Shown piece after piece: positions 51,053-58,833 of a stretch of 64,000 bases of DNA. The first letter of the stretch is position 1; every line of letters begins with the position of its first letter. Source of the DNA: Halorubrum alkaliphilum (GTDB taxonomy: Archaea > Halobacteriota > Halobacteria > Halobacteriales > Haloferacaceae); the NCBI RefSeq assembly GCF_017873815.1, contig NZ_JAGGKQ010000002.1:62001-126000 (forward strand). The letters are read 5' to 3'. A program made the position numbers and the translations under genes. The notes under the pieces are model-generated. The model ran no database searches, had not been told where the DNA came from, and worked only from the letters and a program-made list of their open reading frames with translations.

Positions 51053-51819
51053 CGCTCCTCACTCGGTGCGGGTGACGGGTCGCCGAAGAGGTCGGGCCCC
51101 TCGTCGTCGCTCTCGTTCCCGTCGCTCTCGTTCCCGTCGTCCCCTTCACGCGGCTTCCCGCCGACGAGTACGCCGTCCGTGAGTTCGACGACCCGATCGG
51201 CGTACTCCTCGACGAGCGCGTCGTGGGTCACGGCGATCACGGCGACGCCCTCGGACCGGACCCGCTCGAACTCAGCGAGGATCGACTCGCCCGTGTCGGT
51301 GTCGAGATTCCCGGTCGGCTCGTCCGCCAGCAACACGTCGGGGTCGTTTATGAGCGATCGCGCGATCGCGACCCGCTGTTTCTGGCCACCGGACAGCTCG
51401 GTCGGCTCGTGGTCCAGCCGGTCTCCGAGTCCGAACCGCTCCAAGAGCGACGCGGCCCGGTCGGTCGCGTCACCGGGGTCGAACGCGGTCGGTAACGCGA
51501 CGTTCTCGACCGCGGTCAGCGTCGGCAGCAGATGGAAGTCCTGGAAAACGAACCCGATCGACTCCTTCCGGGCCGTCGTTCGCTCCCCGACAGAGAGGCT
51601 CGTCACGTCGGTCCCGGAGAGCAGTCGTCGCCCGTCAGTCGGGTCATCGAGCAGGCCGAGAACGTTAAGCAGCGTCGACTTTCCGGAGCCGCTCGGACCG
51701 ACGACCGCGACGAACTCCCCCGGATCGACCGCGAGATCGACGGCATCGAGCGCGACCACGGGTTCCGTACCCCCTCCGGGGTACCGCTTCGTCACGTCCT
51801 CCAGCGCGACGCTATACAT
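51049..51819 (-). CDS. ABC transporter ATP-binding protein, MacB/LolD type
   Basis: A 256-residue ATPase. Walker A GPSGSGKST (41-49), signature LSGGQKQRVAIARSL, Walker B VLLADEPTGNLD and the H-loop VTHDA are all present, and the sequence is of the LolD/MacB branch that pairs with FtsX-like permeases. The C-terminal 35 residues are acidic with the repeat GNESDGNESD. The start at 51819 (MYSVALEDVTKRYPGG) overlaps by eight bases the stop of the exported protein upstream; longer frames overlap that gene fully and are excluded. Confidence 0.9.
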   Translation of the reverse strand: MYSVALEDVTKRYPGGGTEPVVALDAVDLAVDPGEFVAVVGPSGSGKSTLLNVLGLLDDPTDGRRLLSGTDVTSLSVGERTTARKESIGFVFQDFHLLPTLTAVENVALPTAFDPGDATDRAASLLERFGLGDRLDHEPTELSGGQKQRVAIARSLINDPDVLLADEPTGNLDTDTGESILAEFERVRSEGVAVIAVTHDALVEEYADRVVELTDGVLVGGKPREGDDGNESDGNESDDEGPDLFGDPSPAPSEER

Positions 51820-53275
51820 CTCGACGCCGGATGACGACCGTGGCGACCGCGATCCCGACGGCTCCGACGGTCCCGACGACTCCGACGGTCCCGACGCCGA
51901 GTCCGATGGGGCCGATCCCGGCACCGGAGACCCCGGCGAACCGGCCGTCGCTCCCGTCGTCCGGCGGGGGCGGAAGGTCGAGGGCAACCGTTTCGACGTA
52001 CCGAACGCCCCGATCCGTGTACTCGATCCGGAGCGGGACGGTGTCGGCAACGGAGGCGTTCGCCGCGGCGTGGATCTCGAAGGGAACGAAGTCGCTCTCG
52101 CCGACGACGCCGACGAAGTACGACTCCCCGTCGGCGGTGCCGGCGACGCCGTCGGCGGCGGTCACGTCGACGACGACACCCTCGATCTCGGCGTCGCCCG
52201 TGTTCGCCAGATTGGCGTCGACGACGACACGGTCGGTGCCCTCGTGCGTCACGCTCGCACCCGTGATCGTCGGACGGCCATCCCGTGGCGGGTACGACAG
52301 GTCGCTCTCGGCGGTTCCCGACGCGCCCTCGCCGTCGGGCGAGCCGGCGGACGAGCGGAACGCCGCGGTGACCGTGACGTTCGATCGCCGGTCCAGCGGA
52401 CCGAGGTCGAGGACGACTCGGCGCTCCTCGCCGGGCGCGACGTCCTCGACCACGAACGGACCTGCGTCCACGACGGGAGCTTCTGTGCCGTTCGCGGCCT
52501 CGCCGGCATCCGCATCGCCGACGTCACTCGGCTCATCAGCGTCGCTATCCTCCAAGCCGAGCCCCGACGCCGTCACGCTCACCCGGTCGGTGACGACGGT
52601 CCCGGTGTTGACGACGGTCACGGCGACGGGCGATGCCATCGGGTCCACCGTCTCCTCGTCCGATCCGGTCTCCAGCCCGCCACCGCCGCCGCCGAGCAGT
52701 CCGTCGATACCGCCGACACCGCCGACGTCGACCCCCTCGGCGTCACCGTCGTCCTCTCGGAGGTCTGCCGGCGAGAGGGGGCGAACGCGGAGATCGACCG
52801 CCGTCTCCGCCGGTTCGACATCGACGACGACGTCACGCTGTACTCGGACGACTGGCGGGTCCGAATCCTCGTCCGCGTCGTCGACCGGCTCCGTCGCGGT
52901 CACCTCGACGGTAAGTCGGTGTTCACCCGGGTCGTCGAACGTCGTCCACAGCGTCGCGTCGAGGTCGTCACCCGGCGATAGCGCGCCCGGCGCGGCCGCC
53001 ACATCGTGTATCTCACCGTCGTCGTCGCGGAGCCGGAGTTCGCTCACGTTCGCCGGTTCGGCGCTTCCCGCCGAGCTCGCGACCGTGACGTTCACTGCGG
53101 TTCGCTCACCGACGACCGGCTCTGACGGGTCGACCGCGACCGTATCGACGGTGATCCGCGCGTCGGGGACCCCCACCACACCGCCGGCCACCGCGGTCGC
53201 GGCGAGACAGGCGAGCAAGAGGGCCGTCGTTCGAGTGGATGGCAAAGTCAACAGTTGTAGGGGTTCACGCGACAT
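51812..53275 (-). CDS. exported membrane-anchored protein with CARDB/NEW3-type domains
   Basis: A 487-residue protein. A Sec-type signal peptide (residues about 15-37, TTALLLACLAATAVAGGVVG) precedes two or three immunoglobulin-like beta domains with phrases such as DPSEPVVGERTAVNVTVASS and GTVVTDRVSVTASGLGL that recall CARDB/NEW3 repeats. A C-terminal membrane helix (about 462-481) ends in RRRDV, so the bulk is outside. It overlaps the ABC ATPase by eight bases and is the first gene of the three-gene operon; it may be the extracellular partner of the MacB-type machine. The start at 53275 is next to a TATA-like ACATATATTC. Confidence 0.8.
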   Translation of the reverse strand: MSREPLQLLTLPSTRTTALLLACLAATAVAGGVVGVPDARITVDTVAVDPSEPVVGERTAVNVTVASSAGSAEPANVSELRLRDDDGEIHDVAAAPGALSPGDDLDATLWTTFDDPGEHRLTVEVTATEPVDDADEDSDPPVVRVQRDVVVDVEPAETAVDLRVRPLSPADLREDDGDAEGVDVGGVGGIDGLLGGGGGGLETGSDEETVDPMASPVAVTVVNTGTVVTDRVSVTASGLGLEDSDADEPSDVGDADAGEAANGTEAPVVDAGPFVVEDVAPGEERRVVLDLGPLDRRSNVTVTAAFRSSAGSPDGEGASGTAESDLSYPPRDGRPTITGASVTHEGTDRVVVDANLANTGDAEIEGVVVDVTAADGVAGTADGESYFVGVVGESDFVPFEIHAAANASVADTVPLRIEYTDRGVRYVETVALDLPPPPDDGSDGRFAGVSGAGIGPIGLGVGTVGVVGTVGAVGIAVATVVIRRRDV

Positions 53276-53423: not shown

Positions 53424-54218
53424 ATGATGGGCGGTAACGACCAGCAGGCGTACGACCGCGGGACCTCGCTGTTCTCGCCCGACGGCCGGATCTATCAGGT
53501 GGAGTACGCCCGCGAGGCGGTCTCGCGCGGCGCGCCGAGCGTCGGGGTCCGGACGGCCGACGGGGTCGTCTTCGTCGCGATGTCACGCGCGAGTTCCACG
53601 CTGATGGAGGCCGAGAGCATCGAGAAGCTCCACAAGCTCGATGACCACCTCGGCACCGCGAGTGCCGGTCACGTCGCCGATGCCCGCCAGCTGATCGACC
53701 TCGCGCGCCGCCAGTCGCAGGGCAACCGCCTCCGCTACGGCGAGCCCGTCGGCGTCGAGACGCTGACGAAGTTCATCACGGACCACATCCAAGAGAACAC
53801 CCAGCGCGGCGGCACCCGGCCGTACGGCGCGGCGCTGCTCATCGGCGGCATCGAGGACGGCGAGCCCTGTCTCTTCGCGGCCGACCCGTCGGGGACGCCC
53901 AACGAGTGGAAGGCGACCGTCATCGGCGGCGGCCGCAAGGAGATACAGAGCCACCTCGAAGAGGAGTGGACCGAGGACCTCTCGCTTTCGGCAGGTATCG
54001 AGCTCGGCGTGGCCGCGTTGGCCGCCCACGACGACGAGTTCGTCCCCGGCGATCTCGCGGTCGCGACGATCACCGAGGCGGACGGCTACCGAACCGTTCC
54101 CGGAGACGATGTCGCCGACGCGTTCGAGGCTGCCGGGCTGACGACGGAGGACGCTGACGCCTCGGACGCCGAGGACGCTGACGACGACGACGCTGACACC
54201 GCTGACGACGAGGAGTAA
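53424..54218 (+). CDS. psmA: proteasome subunit alpha
   Basis: A 264-residue alpha subunit of the 20S proteasome. The N-terminal helix and YDRGTSLFSPDGRIYQVEYAREAV (proteasome alpha signature) are diagnostic; RGAPSVGVRTADGVVF and RPYGAALLIGGIEDGEPCLF follow. The acidic C-terminal tail (DADASDAEDADDDDADTADDEE, here partly quoted) of about 25 residues is a haloarchaeal trait. The N-terminal Met-Gly-Gly start is not processed like the beta subunit. The start is one of two adjacent ATG codons (53424/53427). The beta subunit is not in the window. Confidence 0.95.
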   Translation: MMGGNDQQAYDRGTSLFSPDGRIYQVEYAREAVSRGAPSVGVRTADGVVFVAMSRASSTLMEAESIEKLHKLDDHLGTASAGHVADARQLIDLARRQSQGNRLRYGEPVGVETLTKFITDHIQENTQRGGTRPYGAALLIGGIEDGEPCLFAADPSGTPNEWKATVIGGGRKEIQSHLEEEWTEDLSLSAGIELGVAALAAHDDEFVPGDLAVATITEADGYRTVPGDDVADAFEAAGLTTEDADASDAEDADDDDADTADDEE

Positions 54219-54254: not shown

Positions 54255-56870
54255 TCACCGTTCTTCCAAGATCGCCTCAATCTCCGCGAGCACCGACGGG
54301 TCATCCGTGATCGCACTCCGAAGGACCGCTCCCACGTCTTGTCGCTCGGCGGACCACGTCGCCGTCGACGGTTCGAGCACCGCGTTCTCGGCGACGTACT
54401 CGATCGCGGGACGGTGTTCGGCGTAGGGGGCGTCGGCGACCGCATCGACCGAGAACGGGTCACCGTTCAGCGTCGGAACCAGTCCCTGGTCGACGAGCAG
54501 CGACGCGACCACCGGTGACCGGAACGCCTCGGCGACCGAGAGCGCCTCGCCGAGCAGCTCGGTGTTGGGATTGACGACGACGTACGAGGCGTACACGCCC
54601 GTGTACGATCCCGCGGGACCGGCCGGGGCCGGCATCATCCCGATGTCCTCGCGCTCCGCCTCGGAAAAGAACGACTCGTAGGTCGAGAGGGGGACCCGAG
54701 CGGCGATCGCGTTCTCGTCTGCGAACGTATATACGGGATCGATCACGTCGAACTCGAGCACGCTTTCGGCGCTGGCTCGTTCGACCCCGGAGCCGGAACG
54801 GTCCCCGCCGAGGACGAGGTCGTGGAGGACGTTTGCCGCCTCGACGCCGTCGGCGTCGGCGACGGTGACCGGGTCGCCGTCGGCGGGACGACTCCCGTCG
54901 GTCTCGTAGTATGACCCGCCGAACGCGGCGAGGACTTCCGAGAACGGCCGTGGGACCGACTGTCGACCGCCCGCCCACACGAACCCCTGATCCCGTCGGA
55001 ACGCGGCGACGATCGACGACCACTCGCTCCACGTCGGCGGGTCGGTCATCCACGCCTCGAAGGTGGATTCGTCGTCGATCTCGCGGAATGCGGATTTCCG
55101 ATAGGCCACCGTTTCCGGTATGAACCCGTACGGCAGCGCGTGGACCGCACCGTCCTCGGGGTTTCGGCTCATCCGTTCGAGGGCGGGGAACGACTCGCCG
55201 AGGACATCGCCGATCGGGTGATCGTCCGCGTACCGTGAGAGCGGCTCCGTCGCCCCCGCTCGAACGACCCGTGTGAGCTCGTCGGTGTTCACGAGGAGGA
55301 GGTCAGGCACGTCGTCGCCGCCCTCCACGCCCGCCAGATACCGATCGATCCGATCCGGGTCGTTGAACCGGTCGTCGAGCGCGACGTCTATCTCGGCAGG
55401 GATATCGACGTCCTCGATCGCTTCGGGAAGCGTCTCGAGATCGGTGCCGAACCGAGCGCCTATCGTAACGGTGCCGCCGGTGACTTCGAGCGAGGGTTCC
55501 CCGTCGTCGTCCGAGTCGGTCGCCGATGCTCCCGATGACGGATCGGCGACCGCCCCCGAGCCGTCACCGGTCAGGTCGTCGCCGAACACCTGGATGGCCC
55601 CGTAGGCGACCCCCCCGATCCCGACGGTGCCGACCCCGTATTTGAGAAACGATCGGCGCGACCCGGCGGAGCCCGACGCCGGGTCCGTTGTGCCGTCGAC
55701 GGGGGTGGTGGATCCCGTGCCGACACTTCCGTCATCGGCCGCGGTCGGCTCTCCGCCGTCGGCCGGGTTCGAACCCTTGCCGTCGGCCGGGTTCGAACCC
55801 TTGTCGTCGGCCGGGTTCGACCCGTCCGTGCCCGCCATGGCGTCGTCGGCTTCGCCGTCCGAAGGATCACGGTCTTCCCCGTCGGTAGAGTCGCCGTCAC
55901 TCCCGCTCTTCTCCTCGGTGGCGGTCTCCTCGGAGGACCCCGGCGCACTCGGCGCGACCGTGGCCGCGAGCGCGTCGGCCTCGCGATCGCCCACGCCGAC
56001 GGAGGGAACCGCATCGAGAAGGTCCCGACCGAGCGGGTACGTCGTCGATTGGCGTGTCTCGGGGTCCGTGTCCGCCGCTCGCCGTATCGGCCGCACCGCG
56101 TCATCGGGGAGCTCGTCCGCGAGCGTGTCGACGTCGAATCCCTCGCGTATCGCGGCCGCAAGCGCGGTCGTGTCGCGGTCGGTCACGCTCTCGGCGGGGG
56201 CCCCCTCGTCGTTCGCGGGGTCGGGACTCATTTCCTCGAACGGTCGCGAGCCGGACAGAACGGCGGCGGCGAGGACGCCGATCCGGTACACGTCGGTTCG
56301 ACGACTCGCGTGGTCGCCGTCGAGCTGCTCGGGGGCGGTGAACGGCGTGACGGGCGGCTCCTCGACGAGCCGGCTCAGTCCCCAGTCGCCGACCACCGCG
56401 ACGGGACCGTCGTCGTCGACCCGGAAGGAGAGACAGTCCGGGTGGATCCCGAGGTGCGCGGGCGTCGAACCGTACCGACCGTAGGTGCGAAGCACCTCAC
56501 AGATGTCCGAGAGCAACTCCCCGCGGGTCCGGAGGTCGCAGGCGGTCGCGATCGCGAGGGTGTCACCGGTCGCCCACGCCGCCAACTCCTCGGGGACGTA
56601 CTCGACGGCGACCCACGGTTCGGGGTCGGTCCCCCAGTCGCGAAGCGTCCGCACCGTCCGACGCTCGTCGACGGACGACCATTGGCGAGCGAGCGAGTCG
56701 AACCGGTCGTACTGGTCGCTCGAGATCTCGCCCGTCGGCGTCCGGATCGCGACCGGGGATCCCGCCTCGTCGGTCCCGCGGTACGTCGTCCATCGGGAGG
56801 TCGTTCCGACGAGTTCACCGACGGACCACGAACCGTGGCGCCCCTCCAGCGGCCCCTTGAGCGCAGTCAT
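54255..56870 (-). CDS. degenerate protein kinase - Tat-like anchor - solute-binding protein fusion
   Basis: An 871-residue protein with an unusual order of domains. Residues about 10-285 look like a eukaryotic-type protein kinase: GELVGTTSRWTTYRG (Gly-rich loop region), PVAIRTPTG (the ATP-binding Lys replaced by R43), HLGIHPDCLSF (HRD replaced by HLG at 139-141 and the Asn by Cys), VGDWGLSRL (DFG as DWG, 162-164), APEQL (179-183), TDVYRIGVLAAAVLSG (192-207) and R273. The missing catalytic Asp makes it a probable pseudokinase. Residues 290-403 are an acidic linker with GSNPAD repeats. SRRSFLK (404-410) plus a hydrophobic run to about 430 is a Tat-like motif in an internal position. Residues 460-871 are an ABC-type extracellular solute-binding domain. 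The expected topology is kinase inside, binder outside. The start at 56870 (MTALKGPLEGR) is the first near the kinase fold. Confidence 0.8.
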   Translation of the reverse strand: MTALKGPLEGRHGSWSVGELVGTTSRWTTYRGTDEAGSPVAIRTPTGEISSDQYDRFDSLARQWSSVDERRTVRTLRDWGTDPEPWVAVEYVPEELAAWATGDTLAIATACDLRTRGELLSDICEVLRTYGRYGSTPAHLGIHPDCLSFRVDDDGPVAVVGDWGLSRLVEEPPVTPFTAPEQLDGDHASRRTDVYRIGVLAAAVLSGSRPFEEMSPDPANDEGAPAESVTDRDTTALAAAIREGFDVDTLADELPDDAVRPIRRAADTDPETRQSTTYPLGRDLLDAVPSVGVGDREADALAATVAPSAPGSSEETATEEKSGSDGDSTDGEDRDPSDGEADDAMAGTDGSNPADDKGSNPADGKGSNPADGGEPTAADDGSVGTGSTTPVDGTTDPASGSAGSRRSFLKYGVGTVGIGGVAYGAIQVFGDDLTGDGSGAVADPSSGASATDSDDDGEPSLEVTGGTVTIGARFGTDLETLPEAIEDVDIPAEIDVALDDRFNDPDRIDRYLAGVEGGDDVPDLLLVNTDELTRVVRAGATEPLSRYADDHPIGDVLGESFPALERMSRNPEDGAVHALPYGFIPETVAYRKSAFREIDDESTFEAWMTDPPTWSEWSSIVAAFRRDQGFVWAGGRQSVPRPFSEVLAAFGGSYYETDGSRPADGDPVTVADADGVEAANVLHDLVLGGDRSGSGVERASAESVLEFDVIDPVYTFADENAIAARVPLSTYESFFSEAEREDIGMMPAPAGPAGSYTGVYASYVVVNPNTELLGEALSVAEAFRSPVVASLLVDQGLVPTLNGDPFSVDAVADAPYAEHRPAIEYVAENAVLEPSTATWSAERQDVGAVLRSAITDDPSVLAEIEAILEER
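55756..55827. repeat. 24-base repeat in the kinase-binder linker
   Basis: Three consecutive in-frame units of 24 bases encode GSNPADDK/GSNPADGK/GSNPADGG. The first two units (55756-55779 and 55780-55803) are identical and the third (55804-55827) has diverged. Confidence 0.9.
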
Positions 56871-57174: not shown

Positions 57175-58833
57175 ATGAGTCAGCGAATGCAGCAGGGTCA
57201 GCCGATGGTCATCATGGGGGACGACGCCCAGCGCGTGAAGGACAAGGACGCGCAGGAGTACAACATCTCCGCGGCACGCGGCGTCGCCGAGGCGGTACGT
57301 TCGACGCTCGGGCCGAAAGGGATGGACAAGATGCTCGTCGACTCGATGGGCGACGTCACCATCACGAACGACGGCGTCACCATCCTCCAGACGATGGACA
57401 TCGACAACCCGACGGCCGAGATGATAGTCGAGGTCGCCGAGACCCAGGAGGACGAGGCCGGCGACGGCACGACCAGCGCGGTCGCCATCGCGGGTGAGCT
57501 GCTGAAGAACGCCGAGGACCTCCTCGAACAGGACATCCACCCGACGGCGGTCATCAAGGGCTTCAACCTCGCGAGCGAGTACGCCCGCGAACAGGTCGAC
57601 GAGCTCGCAACCGAGATCGACGCCGAGGACACGGCAACGCTCAAAAGCGTCGCCGAAACGTCCATGACCGGCAAGGGCGCGGAGCTCGAAAAGGAAGTCC
57701 TCGCCGACCTGATCGTCCGCGCGATCCAGGGCGTCACCGTCGAGGCCGACGACGGCTCCCACGTCGTCGATCTCGCGAACCTCAACATCGAGACCCGTAC
57801 CGGTCGCTCGGCGAGCGAGTCGCGGCTCGTCTCCGGGGCGGTGATCGACAAGGATCCGGTTCACGACGACATGCCGACCGACTTCGAGGACGCGAACGTC
57901 CTCCTCCTCAACGACGCCATCGAGGTCGAGGAGGCCGACGTCGACACCGCAGTCAACGTCGAGTCGCCCGACCAGCTCCAGCGCTTCCTCGATCAGGAGG
58001 AGGAACAGCTGCGCGAGAAGGTCGACCAGATCGTCGAGAGCGGCGCGGACGTCGTCTTCTGCCAGAAGGGGATCGACGACCTCGCCCAGCACTACCTCGC
58101 GAAAGAGGGGATCCTCGCGGTCCGCCGGACGAAGAAGTCCGACATGACGTTCCTCAAGAACGTCCTCGATTCGGTCATCGTCACCGACATCGACTCGCTG
58201 TCGAGCGAGGACGTCGCGCCCGGAACGGTTCAGCGTGACACCGCGGAGGAGCTGTTCCACGTCGAGGGGCCCGACGCCCACGGCGCGACGCTACTGCTGT
58301 ACGGTTCCACCGAACACGTCGTTGACGAACTCGAACGCGGCGTCAACGACGCGATCGATGTCGTCGCGACCACCGTCTCCGACGGCCGGACGCTCCCGGG
58401 CGGCGGTGCCATCGAGGTCGAACTCGCTCGTCGACTCCGGGACTACGCCGACTCCGTCTCCGGTCGCGAGCAACTCGCCGTCGAGGCGTTTGCCGACTCA
58501 CTGGAGCTTATTCCGCGTGTGCTCGCCGAGAACGCAGGGCTCGACTCCATCGACCTGCTCGTCGACCTCCGTGCGGCCCACGACGCGGGCGACGAGAACG
58601 CCGGCCTCAACGTGTTCAGCGGTGAGGTCGAGGACACGTTCGACGCGGGCGTCGTCGAGACGGCCCACGCCAAGGAGCAGGCGATCGCCTCTGCTGCCGA
58701 GGCCGCGAACCTCGTCCTGAAAATCGACGACATCATCTCGGCGGGCGACCTGTCCACCTCGGGCGGCGACGACGAGGGTGGTGCGCCCGGCGGCGGCATG
58801 GGCGGTATGGGCGGCATGGGCGGCGCGATGTGA
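57175..58833 (+). CDS. thsA: thermosome subunit (group II chaperonin)
   Basis: A 552-residue chaperonin subunit that folds proteins with ATP in a double-ring cage. VRSTLGPKGMDKMLVDSMGDVTITNDGVTIL (41-71, partly quoted: STLGPKGMDKMLVD) and AGDGTTSA (95-102) form the nucleotide site. The C-terminal GGAPGGGMGGMGGMGGAM tail is the flexible Gly/Met tail of the family. One subunit gene of probably several in the genome; which paralog (alpha, beta or gamma) it is cannot be told. The ATG at 57175 gives the usual acidic N-terminus. Confidence 0.95.
   Translation: MSQRMQQGQPMVIMGDDAQRVKDKDAQEYNISAARGVAEAVRSTLGPKGMDKMLVDSMGDVTITNDGVTILQTMDIDNPTAEMIVEVAETQEDEAGDGTTSAVAIAGELLKNAEDLLEQDIHPTAVIKGFNLASEYAREQVDELATEIDAEDTATLKSVAETSMTGKGAELEKEVLADLIVRAIQGVTVEADDGSHVVDLANLNIETRTGRSASESRLVSGAVIDKDPVHDDMPTDFEDANVLLLNDAIEVEEADVDTAVNVESPDQLQRFLDQEEEQLREKVDQIVESGADVVFCQKGIDDLAQHYLAKEGILAVRRTKKSDMTFLKNVLDSVIVTDIDSLSSEDVAPGTVQRDTAEELFHVEGPDAHGATLLLYGSTEHVVDELERGVNDAIDVVATTVSDGRTLPGGGAIEVELARRLRDYADSVSGREQLAVEAFADSLELIPRVLAENAGLDSIDLLVDLRAAHDAGDENAGLNVFSGEVEDTFDAGVVETAHAKEQAIASAAEAANLVLKIDDIISAGDLSTSGGDDEGGAPGGGMGGMGGMGGAM

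Follow-up and report, generated by a model that had tools for sequence, protein, structure and literature searches.

A putative haloarchaeal receptor pseudokinase joined to a solute-binding domain through an internal twin-arginine segment

The fusion gene and its kinase-fold domain

The window, the whole stretch of 64,000 nucleotides analysed here, belongs to the genome assembly of a Halorubrum-type haloarchaeon (3.10 Mb, 64 contigs). On its minus strand, a complete gene (54255..56870) forms a single uninterrupted frame, with its ATG at 56870 and its stop at 54255, and encodes a protein of 871 amino acids composed, from N- to C-terminus, of a predicted pseudokinase, an acidic linker, a putative twin-arginine anchor and a solute-binding domain (SBP). 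An earlier note on this DNA had described one polypeptide with a kinase-like and a solute-binding part, which holds for the window and for every intact ortholog, where both halves likewise form one frame. The gene is convergent with psmA, encoding the proteasome alpha subunit (53424..54218, plus strand), and divergent from a thermosome (Cpn60/TCP-1) gene (57175..58833, plus strand), beyond which a histidine kinase gene and an ornithine-cyclodeaminase-family gene are annotated. A MacB/FtsX-type ABC pair lies on the side of the fusion gene opposite to the thermosome, and adjoining this pair is a 487-aa frame (51812-53275, minus strand) that opens with a signal-like sequence, contains acidic stretches of low complexity and has a membrane segment at its C-terminus; no Pfam match was obtained for it at 1e-6. 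As the earlier note had stated, no sugar-type ABC permease (BPD_transp_1) was found among the window neighbours adjoining the fusion gene, and the ortholog loci, which were annotated non-exhaustively and are conserved on the thermosome side only, likewise showed no recognisable permease in the vicinity. No conserved output gene was found beside the fusion gene except the thermosome gene.

Residues 1-289 (56004..56870, minus strand) match kinases weakly when the single sequence is used, with a Pfam Pkinase E-value of 3.7e-4, under the curated cut-off, and a phmmer match to a kinase in the PDB at 2e-4. A family profile was therefore built from an alignment of ten relatives (A1). Searched against the PDB, this profile matched hundreds of kinases, including Mycobacterium tuberculosis PknB, the nearest solved sequence relative, with an E-value of 2.9e-18 over profile positions 37-268, which is nearly the whole domain. 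AlphaFold modelling of the domain on A1 gave a best model with a pLDDT of 81.9 and a pTM of 0.82, the other four of the five models lying at 50-60, and a Foldseek search with the kinase-domain model returned PknA, PknB and BRAF as the top PDB matches (E ~5e-10, TM ~0.6-0.7). Taken together, the profile and the predicted structure assign residues 1-289 to the Hanks-type (eukaryotic-like) protein kinase fold, as the earlier note had proposed from the letters of the sequence.

Alignment of individual residues revealed extensive degeneration of the catalytic machinery. Arg43 (56742..56744, minus strand) replaces the ATP-binding Lys of strand beta-3, and the catalytic loop reads HLGIHPDC (residues 139-146; 56433..56456, minus strand), so that the HRD position is occupied by H139-L140-G141 with Gly for Asp, the catalytic-loop Lys by H143 and the metal-binding Asn by C146. 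The alpha-C Glu is also lost, being R, A or T across the pseudokinase family and E in active haloarchaeal relatives. The DFG-equivalent Asp is kept in DWG (162-164; 56379..56387, minus strand), and the APE motif is intact as APEQ (179-182; 56325..56336, minus strand). The earlier note had read the substitutions of the ATP-binding Lys, the HRD Asp and the metal-binding Asn and the intact APE motif correctly and had left the kept DFG Asp unmentioned; it had also asked whether orthologs lack the same residues. In all readable SBP-type orthologs the beta-3 Lys is replaced by Arg, the alpha-C Glu by Arg, HRD by HL(G/A), the catalytic-loop Lys by His and the metal-binding Asn by Cys, whereas DWG and APEQ are retained, and no readable ortholog keeps the catalytic set. 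At the corresponding alignment positions, active haloarchaeal relatives carry VAVK, EAETW, HLDLKPxN and DWG, the last of which was therefore inherited and is no oddity in itself. D162 of this motif is invariant in the pseudokinase alignment together with H139, P144, W64, R56 and R132, among many other residues, and the catalytic loop is altered further in more diverged pseudokinase paralogs (HYYLSPE). Judged by its sequence, the domain has the DFG Asp and lacks the beta-3 Lys, alpha-C Glu, HRD Asp and metal-binding Asn of an active Hanks kinase, and it is classed as a pseudokinase, in which a kinase fold is combined with a loss of catalytic motifs conserved across orthologs. The kept DFG Asp may leave room for nucleotide or metal binding.

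The internal twin-arginine segment and the solute-binding domain

The kinase-fold domain is followed by an acidic, poorly conserved linker (residues 290-402; 55665..56003, minus strand), which is probably a disordered juxtamembrane segment; D and E make up 24.5% of residues 306-403, in keeping with the acidic linker of the earlier note. The internal twin-arginine motif SRRSFLK (404-410; 55641..55661, minus strand) leads into a Gly-rich core (411-430; 55581..55640, minus strand) proposed to act as an uncleaved Tat signal anchor devoid of a lipobox Cys. Both the motif and the core had been pointed out earlier; the core is only weakly hydrophobic, with a Kyte-Doolittle value of 1.26 over 19 residues. 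SRRS(F/L)LK is conserved in 8/8 readable orthologs, counting that of the window, with poorly conserved sequence on either side, and the chance expectation of [ST]RRxFLK in a protein of this composition is 6.6e-6 occurrences. All eight of these orthologs are free of Cys over the 60 residues that start at the RR motif. In 6/8 orthologs, no start codon (ATG, GTG or TTG) occurs within the 90 codons upstream of the motif, so that an N-terminal signal would not easily arise by internal initiation; the production of two separate proteins via an internal start was judged unlikely on the same count. The sequences place the Tat-like signal truly inside the polypeptide. With Tat substrates the protein shares the S/T-R-R-x-F-L-K motif, a weakly hydrophobic core and a genome in which TatC is present; it has no free N-terminal signal, its RR motif being at residue 404, and it scored 12.7 bits against the TIGR01409 Tat model, for which the cut-off is 16.7.

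The C-terminal part (residues 464-871; 54258..55481, minus strand) is a solute-binding domain of the CUT1/family-1 type, in agreement with the earlier note. It matched Pfam SBP_bac_1 at 1.6e-6 (28.8 bits against a cut-off of 26), and a profile of its family matched MalE3 (6dtq, 2.5e-9) and a trehalose/maltose-binding protein (1eu8, 2.8e-6) in the PDB, making maltose/trehalose-binding proteins its nearest relatives by profile; the AlphaFold model of this domain had a pLDDT of 49 and was not used. The fused SBP thus resembles the CUT1 sugar ABC-transporter binding proteins (MalE/TMBP) in its solute-binding fold, in being recognisable by SBP_bac_1/8 and in having haloarchaeal relatives with a Tat-like signal, and differs from them in its fusion to a pseudokinase and in lacking both a lipobox Cys and an adjacent permease. 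The stand-alone SBP relatives carry an RR..LAGC segment like that of Tat lipoproteins, reading SRRQYLAATGAVGAAGLAGC...GGTVTV, and adjoin a BPD_transp_1 permease gene in the two cases tested, in one of them together with a TrmB regulator. In the fused orthologs, SRRSFLK is followed by TGGTVTV, which reads TGGTVTI in the window, and the intervening residues include no Cys. Since the stand-alone relatives are RR..LAGC lipoproteins encoded beside a permease, the internal RR segment of the fusion looks like the SBP's own Tat signal. We infer from these sequences that a pseudokinase-linker module was joined ahead of a Tat-lipoprotein SBP, whose Tat signal was kept and whose lipobox was lost.

In three orthologs (G004, G022 and G033), a halocyanin/plastocyanin-type domain lies between the anchor and the SBP. 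In the G033 protein it scored 120 bits against TIGR03102 (cut-off 93.8), and in G004 and G022 it was assigned from the sequence and the extra length. The inserted domain contains an apparent type-1 copper motif, C-x2-H-x4-M. The three carriers of this domain are not mutual closest relatives in the kinase tree, so more than one gain, loss or exchange of the domain has taken place.

Distribution, descent and selection

The fusion was found in 9/52 genomes of the same genus, one copy being interrupted by a run of N at an assembly gap. It was absent from the other 118 genomes searched in the family, none was seen outside the genus in the order sample searched with the kinase domain, and the named matches listed from a plasmid collection were stand-alone SBPs, none of which covered most of the fusion protein. 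The fusion gene adjoins the thermosome gene in 9/9 carriers, and a functional link between the two was considered. In a thermosome tree of 31 genomes, a branch with 100/99 support separates the carriers from the rest, so that a single gain or loss followed by shared descent explains the linkage.

Related pseudokinases occur in three architectures. The window gene represents type 1, in which an N-terminal pseudokinase is followed by the RR anchor and the SBP; in type 2, an N-terminal pseudokinase precedes a membrane segment and carboxypeptidase-regulatory repeats, and type 3 consists of a Tat-like signal, a PQQ propeller, a membrane segment and a C-terminal pseudokinase. On contig C31 of the window genome (L055:1069-6702), types 2 and 3 are neighbours in tail-to-tail orientation (compare L056 and L057), and some copies of these two types in the genus are broken or partial (L058, L059, L060). 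The pseudokinases attached to SBP, carboxypeptidase-regulatory and PQQ domains form one clade (100/99), with the SBP types inside it (99/97), in a tree where long branches affect the PQQ end. As variants with different outer domains fall into one pseudokinase clade, the catalytic loss most simply predates the fusion. The kinase domain of the fusion is under purifying selection, with pairwise NG86 dN/dS values of 0.11-0.32; the SBP has values of 0.36-0.73 and the linker of 0.41-1.16, and the mean pairwise identities of the three parts, in the same order, are 86%, 66% and 43%. The kinase domain is therefore the most constrained part of the protein, which argues against decay.

Other kinase-fold genes were encountered in these searches. 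A second, separate degenerate kinase clade in the genus (L034, L036, L080, L082, L084, L085 and L087; support 100/100) comprises frames of ~450-515 aa with the pattern LHGGLHPG..DWGLR..AAPEH. In related haloarchaea, two frames of ~1150-1240 aa encode long proteins with a C-terminal active kinase: L067 (G127), an HSP70-GrpE-kinase fusion according to Pfam, and its close relative L068 (G123). Many kinase-fold genes per genome, with up to 12 matches, were noted for loci L070-L073 and L128-L135 and for genomes G216, G223, G262 and G318; these genes are often clustered, and their attached regions are varied and include repeat-like and coiled-coil-like ones. A protein from another family of the order (L129:298-2193) has multiple membrane spans and a C-terminal kinase fold without the HRD Asp (VHSNVSPSH).

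An initial idea that the pseudokinase has an active Hanks kinase as its partner in carriers was dismissed, since none of their genomes yields a Pkinase match that passes the Pfam cut-off. Such matches are present in 13 other genomes of the genus, a non-overlap that is not significant (~0.06, hypergeometric). Weak matches under the cut-off, some of them probably RIO and ABC1/UbiB-type proteins, occur in many genomes. Neither FHA nor PP2C_2 (Pfam) was matched in the window genome and, combined with the lack of over-cut-off Pkinase matches in carriers, this argues against ordinary Ser/Thr phospho-signalling.

A candidate receptor and the competing readings

Receptor-like kinase architectures are well known in bacteria and eukaryotes. 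The fusion protein resembles the bacterial receptor Ser/Thr kinases PknB, PknA and StkP in the order of its parts, i.e. an N-terminal cytoplasmic kinase fold, a juxtamembrane linker, one membrane segment and a C-terminal outer sensor, as predicted here, but it is catalytically degenerate and archaeal, with a Tat-like internal anchor and an SBP in place of PASTA repeats. A dead kinase fold with a membrane segment C-terminal to it and a proposed scaffold role are also features of the bacterial transmembrane pseudokinases, such as MviN of M. tuberculosis, EssB/YukC and ActPs1 (PMC12599244). ActPs1 often carries a PQQ_2 domain (PMC12599244), and a PQQ domain is shared by some of the haloarchaeal paralogs, in which it is N-terminal to the pseudokinase. 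However, all three catalytic motifs carry substitutions in ActPs1 (PMC12599244) whereas the fusion keeps the DFG Asp, so the latter is not a member of this family, and neither an SBP or halocyanin domain nor an archaeal family was found described among the transmembrane pseudokinases of PMC12599244. Internal Tat signals have been demonstrated experimentally in the actinobacterial Rieske protein Sco2149 and related proteins (PMC5449189). These dual Sec-Tat proteins are similar to the fusion in that the Tat motif lies deep within the sequence, hydrophobicity is low and the anchor is uncleaved, the last being proposed for the fusion, although their internal signals come after Sec-inserted helices (PMC5449189) and that of the fusion after a soluble domain of ~290 residues and a linker. 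Within haloarchaea, the active kinase L065 also combines an N-terminal kinase with a twin-arginine segment; unlike the fusion, it has a full catalytic set and no SBP, its C-terminus being of the plastocyanin/halocyanin type.

The reading that we regard as probable is that of a Tat-anchored receptor pseudokinase in which ligand binding is relayed by changed protein contacts. We infer the following scheme for Tat use, topology, ligand sensing and scaffold output. The protein would be a single-pass membrane receptor whose N-terminal Hanks-fold pseudokinase remains cytoplasmic, and beyond the disordered acidic linker an internal Tat signal, left uncleaved, would both hold the protein in the membrane and direct export of the folded sugar-type SBP at the C-terminus. 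Binding of a ligand, or docking of an ABC permease encoded elsewhere, may then alter the partner binding of the pseudokinase, which would act as an allosteric scaffold and not as a phosphotransferase. The predicted architecture fits the likeness to receptor kinases drawn in the earlier note. Two further observations add weight to the receptor reading: paralogs from the same pseudokinase clade carry other domains predicted to lie outside the cytoplasm, and the stand-alone SBP relatives adjoin an ABC permease while the fused SBP does not.

Should the SBP instead be a membrane-tethered capture device feeding a sugar ABC transporter encoded elsewhere, with the pseudokinase regulating or docking this transporter from inside, its CUT1-like family, its stand-alone relatives that are transporter subunits beside BPD_transp_1 permeases and the dN/dS range of the SBP, which allows an adapted ligand site, would all be accommodated. 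This appears unlikely, however, given that a long folded cytoplasmic domain is unnecessary for capture and that no permease adjoins the gene in the window or was recognised near it in the non-exhaustively annotated ortholog loci. It is likewise doubtful that the RR segment serves as a Sec/SRP signal anchor, which would give the same topology, or that the protein stays cytoplasmic. Tat signals normally have a free N-terminus, the TIGR01409 score is under its cut-off and the corresponding segment of the carboxypeptidase-regulatory paralogs is more hydrophobic and has no RR, all of which would suit such a role; the near-perfect RR consensus conserved in all eight readable orthologs, the weak hydrophobicity of the core, the halocyanin of three orthologs, which is the kind of folded cofactor domain that Tat carries, and the resemblance of the stand-alone SBP relatives to Tat lipoproteins speak for Tat.

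The output of the pseudokinase is also open to other readings. The invariance of D162, H139, P144, W64, R56 and R132 and the strong purifying selection on the kinase-fold domain could reflect an enzyme with non-canonical chemistry, e.g. nucleotide transfer as in the SelO-type 'pseudokinases', which uses the kept DFG Asp and other conserved residues. To this we assign a low probability, as none of the beta-3 Lys, alpha-C Glu, HRD Asp and metal-binding Asn survives, the catalytic loop has changed even more in the more diverged paralogs and the conserved residues may be needed for folding alone. Decay of the kinase-like domain into a relic, or its origin as a functionless accident of fusion, is scarcely credible: the loss of catalytic residues, the confinement of the fusion to one clade of one genus and the broken state of some carboxypeptidase-regulatory paralogs would fit such a history, but it is contradicted by the low dN/dS of the kinase domain, by its higher identity than that of the SBP and by frames that are intact in all orthologs but the one with the assembly gap.

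More tentatively than for the single protein, the receptor pseudokinase reading may extend to a haloarchaeal class of membrane-spanning receptor pseudokinases whose outer domains can be exchanged. This class would operate in cells without a canonical Hanks kinase, FHA or PP2C, and its SBP type would be inserted by Tat after a folded cytoplasmic domain. The outer domains seen to be exchanged are SBP, halocyanin plus SBP, carboxypeptidase-regulatory repeats and the PQQ propeller. In the open-licence literature searched, no description was found of an archaeal pseudokinase family or a pseudokinase-SBP fusion, nor of membrane insertion by a Tat signal behind a folded cytoplasmic domain. The fusion falls into a small set of archaeal receptor-like proteins that appears not to have been described before and whose members probably relay a signal without phosphorylation. 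If the wider class reading is true, kinase folds would signal here without transferring phosphate. A dead kinase conserved in genomes that lack any Pfam-grade Hanks kinase would provide an uncluttered natural system for studying the role of the kinase fold in the absence of catalysis and of a catalytic partner. The internal RR signal would offer a direct test of whether Tat inserts a protein with an already folded cytosolic N-terminus, and the size of the fusion protein suits testing in Haloferax volcanii.
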